From Enorma massiliensis phI (GTDB taxonomy: Bacteria; Actinomycetota; Coriobacteriia; Coriobacteriales; Coriobacteriaceae), in contig NZ_HE978574.1 in NCBI RefSeq assembly GCF_000311845.1, forward strand, positions 203,206 to 238,448: a stretch of DNA of 35,243 nucleotides, read 5' to 3'. This document shows positions 27,556 to 29,395 of the stretch, piece after piece. The notes beneath the pieces were generated by a model that was not told where the DNA came from, ran no database searches, and saw only the letters and a program-made list of their open reading frames with translations. Both the position numbers and the translations under genes were made by a program. Position 1 is the first letter of the stretch, and the number at the start of each line of letters is the position of its first letter.

Positions 27556-27595
27556 GTATCCGTGTCGCGTTGCATTGCGCGGCGCGGATACTTTT
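27556..27595 (+). terminator. terminator hairpin
   Basis: A 14-bp stem (27556-27569 with 27578-27591, including two G-U pairs) has an 8-nt loop and is followed by TTTT. It lies 150 bp past clpB and directly abuts the left terminal repeat of the 194-bp element. Confidence 0.75.
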
Positions 27596-27596
27596 C

Positions 27597-27790
27597 TGGC
27601 TAAAAATGTCGATTTATGGCGATGGTTCGGTGCTCTCGCGTCGGTTTCGACGCCGCCTGCATTGGGGGCGCGTGCGAAGCGCTAGAAAAACCTGCGGATA
27701 TGGTGGGTTACACGGATCAGCGCAGATTGTTTGTTGGCATTTGAGGAAAAGGCGCGGGCGGGGAGAGCAGAAAATCGACATTTTTAGCCA
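27597..27790. repeat. 194-bp element with 19-bp terminal inverted repeats (left copy)
   Basis: The element begins with TGGCTAAAAATGTCGATTT and ends with its exact reverse complement (27772-27790). The interior encodes nothing recognisable. A second element with the same ends and exactly the same length lies at 29063-29256. The interiors differ after about 30 bp. The left end continues with ATGGCGATGG, matching CTGGCGATGG in the other copy. No target-site duplication is visible. It ends 99 bp before the nuclease-like gene. Confidence 0.75.
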
Positions 27791-27889
27791 GAAACATGCG
27801 TTGCAGATAGCGATGGCCATGCGCGGGGGTTCGTCGTGGAGTGCATGATTCGTGCGAGAGCCCGACCGCGTTTGTGATAGCGTTGTTGC

Positions 27890-28960
27890 ATGGAGTGCAT
27901 CGTTGTTTCACATACTTCTGCCGTCCGCGGTGCGAGAGCTGAGCGCTGCTCATATGCTGCGGTTACCTGGCATCCCTTAGATAAAAGGGAGCAGCGCCGG
28001 GTCCTTGCCTCATGCGCCCCAAACAAGATTGCTATCGATTTTGAAGAGCTGGCCCGCAAGGGTTTCTGGCAGGGGGCCGAGGGCGAAGAGCTTCATATTT
28101 TGATGGGCGATCCGTCTCATGTAAGCAGGAAGAGCGGGTTGCGCTGCCACGTGATTTCAAGGCCCTTGCCTGCGGGCGCCATCATGCGTGTTGGCGCTGG
28201 TCTCTATTGTTGTTCTCCAGCGTTCGCCACGCTTCTGTACTCCGAGGGGCGGTCGCTGCCTGAAGTCTACGCGCTTGTTATGGAGCTGTTGGGAATCTAT
28301 TCGCTGCCTGCCGAGGCTACGCTGCCCATTGCATGGGGTGGCGTGTGGCCAGATTTTACCGATCGGCATAACGTGGAGCAGGAACATTGTCGCTGCGAAC
28401 CGGCCGTGACCATGCGCGAGCTGCGTGCCGTCGCTGCATGGGCAACCGGCAGACGGTACGCCACGTTTCGTCGGGCTGTTGAATATGCACTCTCAGGCTC
28501 GGCCTCTCCCATGGAGACCGTCATGGCTGGCATGTTCTCTATTCCCATGCGTTGGGGCGGCTTCAATTTGCGGGCGCTTCCTCAGGGAGGAATGCTTCTC
28601 AACCATCGAATCGACTTCTCTCCCCGGGCGGTTCGGATGGCATCGGGGATTCCGTACGCCGTGTGTGACTTGTACATTCCCGCCGCCGGGTCCGACCTTG
28701 AGTACAACGGCGGCTACCACGAGCAGGAATCGGTGCGCGTACGAGATGGCCAACGCAATAACGGCCTCAAGGGAATGGGGGTCAAGGTCCTCGTGATTAA
28801 TCGCGACCAGATGATAGATATCGTTGCGCTTGAAGCTATTGCACAGTCGATCTATGACGACGCCAACCAACGTTTTCGCTATCAAGCGGCGGGGTATCGC
28901 GTGCGACAACTGGCGCTGCTCAACGGGTTGCGCGCCGGTATTGGCTTGCCGCCTGTGTGA
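27890..28960 (+). CDS. AbiEi/Vsr-like protein with PD-(D/E)XK (DUF559-type) C-terminal domain
   Basis: The 356-aa protein starts ECIVVSHTSAV, the usual opening of a Coriobacteria family that I recall as AbiEi-like. Its middle (HVISRPLPAGAIMRVGAGLYCCSPAFATLLY) resembles the AbiEi substrate region. Residues about 255-340 form a Vsr/DUF559-like nuclease fold: D in CDLYIPAAG, then LEYNGGYHE, then D..R...L..MGVKVLVI. The E-x-N-G and H positions match, but the classic second Lys of D/E-x-K is not obvious, so activity is uncertain. No Shine-Dalgarno is visible; a -10-like TAGCGT is 6 bases before the ATG, so it may be leaderless. It sits centrally between two 194-bp repeat elements. Alternatives: type IV antitoxin-like regulator, or a transposition/repair nuclease. 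Confidence 0.7.
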   Translation: MECIVVSHTSAVRGARAERCSYAAVTWHPLDKREQRRVLASCAPNKIAIDFEELARKGFWQGAEGEELHILMGDPSHVSRKSGLRCHVISRPLPAGAIMRVGAGLYCCSPAFATLLYSEGRSLPEVYALVMELLGIYSLPAEATLPIAWGGVWPDFTDRHNVEQEHCRCEPAVTMRELRAVAAWATGRRYATFRRAVEYALSGSASPMETVMAGMFSIPMRWGGFNLRALPQGGMLLNHRIDFSPRAVRMASGIPYAVCDLYIPAAGSDLEYNGGYHEQESVRVRDGQRNNGLKGMGVKVLVINRDQMIDIVALEAIAQSIYDDANQRFRYQAAGYRVRQLALLNGLRAGIGLPPV

Positions 28961-29062
28961 CGCGCTGGAATTCCGGTGCGTTGTGCTCGGGGCTCCATTT
29001 GCGTGCTTCCTGCCCCTGTTTGCACCGACGAGCATCGGTTTGTATCTTGCGGTGCTCGATTT

Positions 29063-29256
29063 TGGCTAAAAATGTCGATTTCTGGCGATGGAAGATGGGA
29101 ACTTGGGCAGGATGGGAGTGACTCTCTCGCCATTCGCGTGACGATGGGACGGCTAACAGGCAGAATGCGAGCCTCCGGCCCGACAAAAGGGGCTAATGAG
29201 GCCGCGACGTTCTCTCGGTGCGGGTGCGGATTGCCATAAATCGACATTTTTAGCCA
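29063..29256. repeat. 194-bp element with 19-bp terminal inverted repeats (right copy)
   Basis: It starts with TGGCTAAAAATGTCGATTT and ends with the exact inverse (29238-29256). It has the same length as the left copy but a different interior. It begins 102 bp after the stop of the nuclease-like gene. The ends extend partly beyond the 19 bp: TTT precedes and (A/C)TGGC or similar follows in three of the four termini. No coding potential is evident inside. Confidence 0.75.
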
Positions 29257-29307
29257 AAAACGGCGGGCGGAGGTTAAAACGGACCGCGCGCGGCGGTGAG
29301 AAGCGAG

Positions 29308-29395
29308 GCGGGACGGGCGTGCGGGCGCCGGGCAAAGGGCGGGACGGGCGTGCGGGCGCCGGCAAAGGGCGGGACGGGCGTGCGGGCGCCGGTGG
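29308..29395. repeat. GC-rich tandem repeat, 30-31 bp unit, nearly three copies
   Basis: GGACGGGCGTGCGGGCGCCG starts at 29311, 29342 and 29372 (periods 31 and 30). A second pair, GCGGCAGCGAGG, lies about 58 bp apart near 29416 and 29474. The region 28961-29595 has no convincing gene; open frames across it are by-products of the repeats. Confidence 0.7.

Follow-up and report, generated by a model that had tools for sequence, protein, structure and literature searches.

Nuclease-like genes of Coriobacteriales, remotely similar to Vsr/DUF559, often adjoin private families of two-armed repeat elements: a probable counterpart of the REPIN/RAYT arrangement

In Coriobacteriales, genes of an unnamed nuclease-like family lie beside short inverted-repeat elements that are also dispersed elsewhere in the genome, an arrangement that looks like an undescribed counterpart of REPIN/RAYT, built on an unrelated homing-endonuclease-like enzyme. 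The reading that we favor, at a probability of roughly 0.6, is a REPIN/RAYT-like system of independent origin in which a Vsr/DUF559-type nuclease recognizes, and probably spreads or maintains, two-armed non-autonomous elements. It draws on the observed adjacency of genes and elements, the private dispersed element families, the conservation of arms, the co-divergence of arms and proteins, presence and absence at orthologous sites, and purifying selection. In REPIN-RAYT systems, doublets of REP sequences occur with REP-associated tyrosine transposases (PMC3116915); each repeat type has one gene, and the repeats, found both next to that gene and dispersed, form inverted doublets with a preferred spacing, a drifting spacer, and conserved ends (PMC3116915).

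The window, a 35,243-nucleotide stretch of the Enorma massiliensis phI genome, contains four exact copies of the 19-mer TGGCTAAAAATGTCGATTT, at 27597-27615(+), 27772-27790(-), 29063-29081(+), and 29238-29256(-), where none is expected (100 shuffles); a chance origin of the repeat was thereby ruled out. The original prediction described these copies as two inverted pairs of exactly 194 bp each, the left ending 99 bp upstream of a gene and the right starting 102 bp downstream of it, and all of these positions, spans, and gaps proved exact; the interiors of the two elements differ, as was also claimed, to the point that they cannot be aligned. The left element (27593..27794, no strand assigned) has perfect full arms of 23 bp (27593-27615 and 27772-27794), and in the right one (29057..29262, likewise without strand) the arms extend to 33 bp at 91% identity (29057-29089 and 29230-29262). 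As single-stranded DNA both fold into hairpins, with z = -7.8 for the left and z = -5.9 for the right element relative to shuffles. The chance of two of seven randomly placed elements falling within 310 bp of the window gene is about 1.6e-6. Immediately 3′ of the right element, the window also carries three near-tandem, G+C-rich 30-bp repeats (GGCAAAGGGCGGGACGGGCGTGCGGGCGCC; 29300-29390).

The gene between the elements is an intact ORF on the + strand (27890..28960, with ATG at 27890 and stop at 28960), encoding a 356-aa protein, P0001, of this Coriobacteriales element-associated family, the proposed trans-acting nuclease. Its neighbors are genes for ClpB, a HAD hydrolase, and an FMN oxidoreductase. 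The C-terminal part (approximately residues 248-312; 28631..28825, + strand) is endonuclease-like and includes D260 (28667-28669), E271 (28700-28702), H277 (28718-28720), and D286 (28745-28747), all on the + strand; S206, P207, E209, G223, D260, E271, and H277 are invariant across 61 diverse family members. Over about 55 residues, profiles of this catalytic region match the endonuclease-like protein PDB 3hrl (E = 3e-5), which we take to be a DUF559 protein, and, weakly but significantly, the mobile intron protein PDB 3r3p (E of about 6e-4 to 9e-4), presumably the Vsr-like (EDxHD) homing endonuclease I-Bth0305I. Weak matches to MTES_1575 (PF18741) were found in 33 of the 61 members and to DUF559 (PF04480) in 22, and no other Pfam family recurs. 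Scanned singly, the six family members of the source genome fall below the curated DUF559 and MTES_1575 cut-offs (20.6 and 38.2 bits), and the window protein has zero Pfam hits; no NCBIfam model fits the family. The N-terminal 240 residues had no match in profile comparisons, and a structure prediction from six sequences (pLDDT 48) was too poor for fold comparison. To judge from sequence, the family would be remotely similar to DUF559/MTES_1575 and to a Vsr-like homing endonuclease. Of the earlier label "AbiEi/Vsr-like," the Vsr/DUF559-like C-terminal domain therefore stands as a remote similarity, and the AbiEi part does not (one paralogue only, E = 0.03). The suggestion of a defence module found no support: there is no AbiEii toxin of an AbiE toxin-antitoxin system beside the window gene, no relative of its protein was found in phage or viral contigs, and the single match in a plasmid collection lies in a 0.9-Mb record.

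The family is widespread, being present in 64 of 65 Coriobacteriaceae genomes at 3-8 copies each, and members occur in two further families of the order. The source genome (G000, 2.28 Mb) has five paralogues besides the window gene. A scan of genome contigs with an alignment of clade A, to which the window gene belongs, gave six loci. The relatives of the window protein at prs-pth are intact, with 55-61% identity, and that locus of the gene is kept across genera; the window gene, at the clpB-HAD locus, is a second clade-A gene that was seen only in G000 among the genomes examined. The prs-pth copy is the long-standing clade-A gene and the window copy an extra one with its own diverged arms (TGGCTAAAAATGTCGATTT, compared with TGGCAGTTATTTCAACTATGAACGATT for the prs-pth paralogue). 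A search of other Enorma genomes for the empty window locus and the metG-ksgA site found no clpB-HAD junction, and the sequences are too diverged for an insertion junction to be read. Across 13 Collinsella orthologues the median dN/dS was 0.16, which shows purifying selection on this one orthologue group. Like RAYT genes, the gene is for the most part inherited at a fixed locus.

Adjacency of elements to family genes was found well beyond the window. Most of 23 family genes from five genomes of the genus have an inverted-repeat element typical of their clade up- or downstream, and at 59 further loci an element lay within 400 bp in 39, compared with 14 of 140 control genes (p = 2e-15); one repeat common to both sides of the gene was seen at 18 of these loci and at 4 of the 140 controls (p = 1e-7). 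In a comparison of 80 loci from three bacterial families, with equal mean gap length for family and control gaps, an element was present in 55 of 119 intergenic gaps adjoining family genes versus 13 of 156 control gaps (p = 5e-13). Outside Coriobacteriaceae, in two other families, about 12 of 20 loci have an adjoining element. Distances from the gene range from about 30 to 400 bp, and elements often occur on both sides, the side (up, down, or both) not being fixed. Approximately 40% of family members have no adjoining element detectable by the simple score used, which misses degenerate elements (L142, for example, was recognized by eye). The original idea, that of a RAYT/REP-like association of the gene with its flanking elements but around a nuclease of another family, thus extends far outside the window, as the gap enrichment indicates; the repeat is neither free of enrichment near these genes nor randomly spaced, since pairs elsewhere have a near-constant span.

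In the source genome, TGGCTAAAAATGTCGATTT occurs in 12 exact copies that make up about seven elements, with five sites besides the window pair; an element restricted to the window locus was ruled out by these copies. Other inverted pairs of the window arm lie at C1:297127, C1:662436, C1:698112, and C2:4755/4907 of G000, and at C2:496967 there is a hybrid of one TGGCTAAAAATGTCGATTT-type arm and one variant arm, TGGCTAACTTTGTCGATTT, as if two sub-families had recombined or one were diverging. The variant arm also forms an inverted pair of its own; these observations come from G000:C1:43936-44116, C1:327151, and C2:496967 (L014, L016, and L012). Window-family elements span about 171-196 bp in this genome and their interiors are mostly not alignable, although that of the right window element is related to those of the dispersed copies at C1:662436 and 698112. 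The caution that the equal lengths of the window pair might be coincidental was partly justified, as same-family elements vary within this range. Because elements occur at other sites with a near-constant span, dispersal is a property of the 194-bp element and not of the 1.66-kb unit alone. Among 67 genomes of the bacterial family, the window arm was found at 0-1 mismatches in G000 only, and in none of the other Enorma. In a Collinsella genome (G040; L306-L311), a variant with two mismatches, TGGATAAAAATGTCGATTATGCATTTT, occurs nine times, with some of the arms paired at about 226 bp; the cognate gene of these arms was not located there.

Most paralogues in the two genomes inspected have a dispersed element family of their own. 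Searches of the source genome with the elements of the five other paralogues returned a distinct family every time, with about 13 elements for the gene at C1:274415, 6 each for C2:125043 and C1:169005, 5 for C1:1105399, and only 1 for C1:309117, compared with about seven for the window gene. Elements of four of six paralogues are dispersed in another genome, G027, where five of six control intergenic segments are not. The sixth, at G027:C3:1485247-1485407, belongs to another hairpin repeat family, whose copies are about 60-70 bp long and lie at about 14 other sites too, with no family gene seen alongside. Apart from the single-copy G000 paralogue, element families number 3-13 copies per genome. 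All consist of inverted arms of 19-45 bp that enclose a freely drifting interior, and the span depends on the gene clade: 160-230 bp in the window clade, 62-68 bp in a second, whose hairpins lie at either side of the gene, and about 120-160 bp in a third, with 120-147 bp among the 23 genes from five genomes. The large elements have arms that are not palindromic in themselves. One element (L030, 119-280 bp downstream of its gene) is a nearly full palindrome of 162 bp, whereas its clade relatives pair at the ends only.

Arms and proteins diverge together. Mean arm similarity, computed over 67 non-redundant members that have an element, rose from 5.1 at <30% protein identity to 12.7 at 60-85%, and the correlation of arm similarity with protein identity (Mantel r = 0.35) was not reached in any of 2000 permutations, though part of it is automatic because a neighboring gene and element at an orthologous locus are co-inherited. 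Adjacency, private families, and co-divergence together ruled out that gene and repeat are unrelated, and recognition of the arms by the cognate protein is strongly implied by these sequence patterns. The same observations bear on whether the elements could be ordinary MITEs, derived from an unrelated DDE transposon and placed beside these genes by accident. As MITEs are, they are short, dispersed, and non-coding, with terminal inverted repeats. However, enrichment beside one gene family in gaps matched for length, a separate repeat for each paralogue, co-divergence with a nuclease-family protein as the cognate partner, and the lack of a clear target-site duplication are all unexpected of MITEs; no DDE transposase was met between or beside the same ends. 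We regard this as the least probable of the explanations considered.

Conservation within the elements is concentrated in the arms. At the prs-pth locus of four Enorma genomes, the TTCAGATATGYACGATTG-type arms align and the interiors do not, and at dispersed sites identity was 94-99% in arms, compared with 69-87% in interiors and 71-84% in flanks. At one of these, site 2 (L220, L221, L222, and L179), arms are about 95% and the interior about 69% identical in four genomes that do not have the cognate gene. Arm conservation without the gene sits awkwardly with the idea that the gene maintains them for purely selfish ends, and at site 2 it is not explained by a gene-dependent model. These data bring in the main rival, a host function, in which a domesticated nuclease would bind arms without mobilizing them, as a nucleoid, repair, or regulatory factor whose arms the host needs. 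Long vertical inheritance at prs-pth, purifying selection on the protein, low element copy numbers, and the conservation of arms around drifting interiors at fixed sites, also in genomes that lack the cognate gene, are all consistent with such a role. In contrast, different arms for each paralogue are unexpected of a shared housekeeping role, and close relatives differ in element presence, with a copy lying in-frame in hypF, so that the elements must move or once have moved. A host function is thus a possible but doubtful explanation of the whole.

Element presence was followed among Collinsella genomes. One arm was found in 13 of 13 genomes with its cognate gene versus 10 of 52 without (p = 7e-8), a test that is partly circular, as two elements always flank this gene (13 of 13 genomes) and were counted; it was therefore repeated on dispersed copies only, within the genus, which were present in 10 of 13 genomes with the gene versus 7 of 31 without (p = 0.0016). 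A comparison of orthologous sites across 23 genomes showed an element at site 1 in 11 of them and none in the other 12. A site within hypF is occupied in four genomes, all with the cognate gene, and empty in 19. Occupied hypF alleles (L223, L224, L225, and L232) are longer than empty ones by 213 or 225 bp, both divisible by three; the ORF of 891-902 codons remains open across the in-frame 205-bp element, which lengthens a variable loop by about 70 residues. Occupied and empty alleles thus show element gain, including this frame-preserving case, and from this gain and the nuclease domain we infer catalysis and movement. There is no clear target-site duplication in two occupied/empty comparisons. 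Empty alleles at two sites carry one TGGA(C)-like motif at the position of the element's outer end, which is only a lead as a clue to the target.

The hypF copy also bears on local control, by which the flanking hairpins would be operators, attenuators, or RNA-processing sites and the dispersed copies a regulon. The strength of the hairpins and their position about 30-400 bp from the gene, often on both sides, would suit this role; however, the variable side, the widely separated arms around a drifting interior, and an element within hypF are unlike an operator, and no Rfam match was found. We consider local control unlikely. At prs-pth, the gene and both elements were present together in 13 of the 23 genomes and absent together in 10, as would be expected if the whole element-gene-element unit were mobile or homing, either as a composite element or as a free-standing homing cassette; the remote similarity to a homing endonuclease and the status of the window copy as an extra one point the same way. 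However, the gene has stayed at prs-pth across genera, the gene-less alleles there represent entirely unlike intergenic haplotypes, and the dispersed copies are for the most part elements with no gene, which makes a mobile whole unit very improbable. Of the 1.66-kb cassette first proposed, the link between gene and elements is upheld, and the unit as the only carrier is not, given that 194-bp elements are dispersed without the gene.

Under the favored REPIN/RAYT-like reading, the source genome would contain about six parallel pairs, each matching a single nuclease gene with a private family of short non-autonomous elements. The protein may bind its cognate element at both arms and would probably do so as a dimer able to sense arm spacing; its Vsr/EDxHD-type domain would then nick or cut the outer end, TGGA-like in the window clade, and the element would be copied or moved in trans at a low rate. 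Whether this amounts to a new class of DNA-mobility enzyme, with Vsr/EDxHD-type nucleases mobilizing or maintaining two-armed elements in trans, a radiation across Coriobacteriales into several gene-specific repeat "languages" in each genome, and a second independent REPIN-RAYT-like origin, is in our estimate an even bet.

Resemblances to known systems are partial. As in REPIN-RAYT, a distinctive single-copy gene per repeat type is largely inherited in place, repeats adjoin the gene and are dispersed as inverted doublets of defined spacing with ends conserved more than the spacer, and protein and repeat co-evolve. Unlike in REPIN-RAYT, the protein is remotely Vsr/DUF559-like, with no Pfam match to a Y1 (HUH) or other transposase in 61 family members; in the large elements no arm is in itself a 20-40-bp palindrome of the REP kind, and elements of 62-230 bp occur in 3-13 copies, compared with hundreds of REPs. 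The weak catalytic-region match points to 3r3p, a DNA-mobility enzyme, although the window ORF is free-standing and intergenic, with no Rfam intron at the locus and no intein, an unmatched N-terminal part, and dispersed repeats as partners. With DUF559, REase_MTES_1575, and 3hrl the family shares a C-terminal D...E-x-(N/D)-G...H...D..R pattern, at scores below the curated cut-offs in the six G000 members scanned. Rickettsia palindromic elements are short palindromic elements that lie in-frame within protein-coding genes, as the hypF element does, but we know of no cognate nuclease gene for them, whereas the elements described here are mostly intergenic and have a proposed one. Searches for a RAYT, an AbiE partner, or an association with phages came up empty, and none of the open-access papers searched describes such a nuclease-repeat pairing.

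REPIN-RAYT serves as the textbook example of a long-retained association between a chromosomal gene and a population of tiny repeats. If the favored reading is true, a second such arrangement on an unrelated nuclease would suggest a general solution and would provide an independent test bed. The 3-8 diverged gene-arm pairs in most genomes would offer many natural protein-DNA specificity pairs for comparison, in a host family that includes common gut bacteria, and a nuclease family without a curated model would gain a testable hypothesis.
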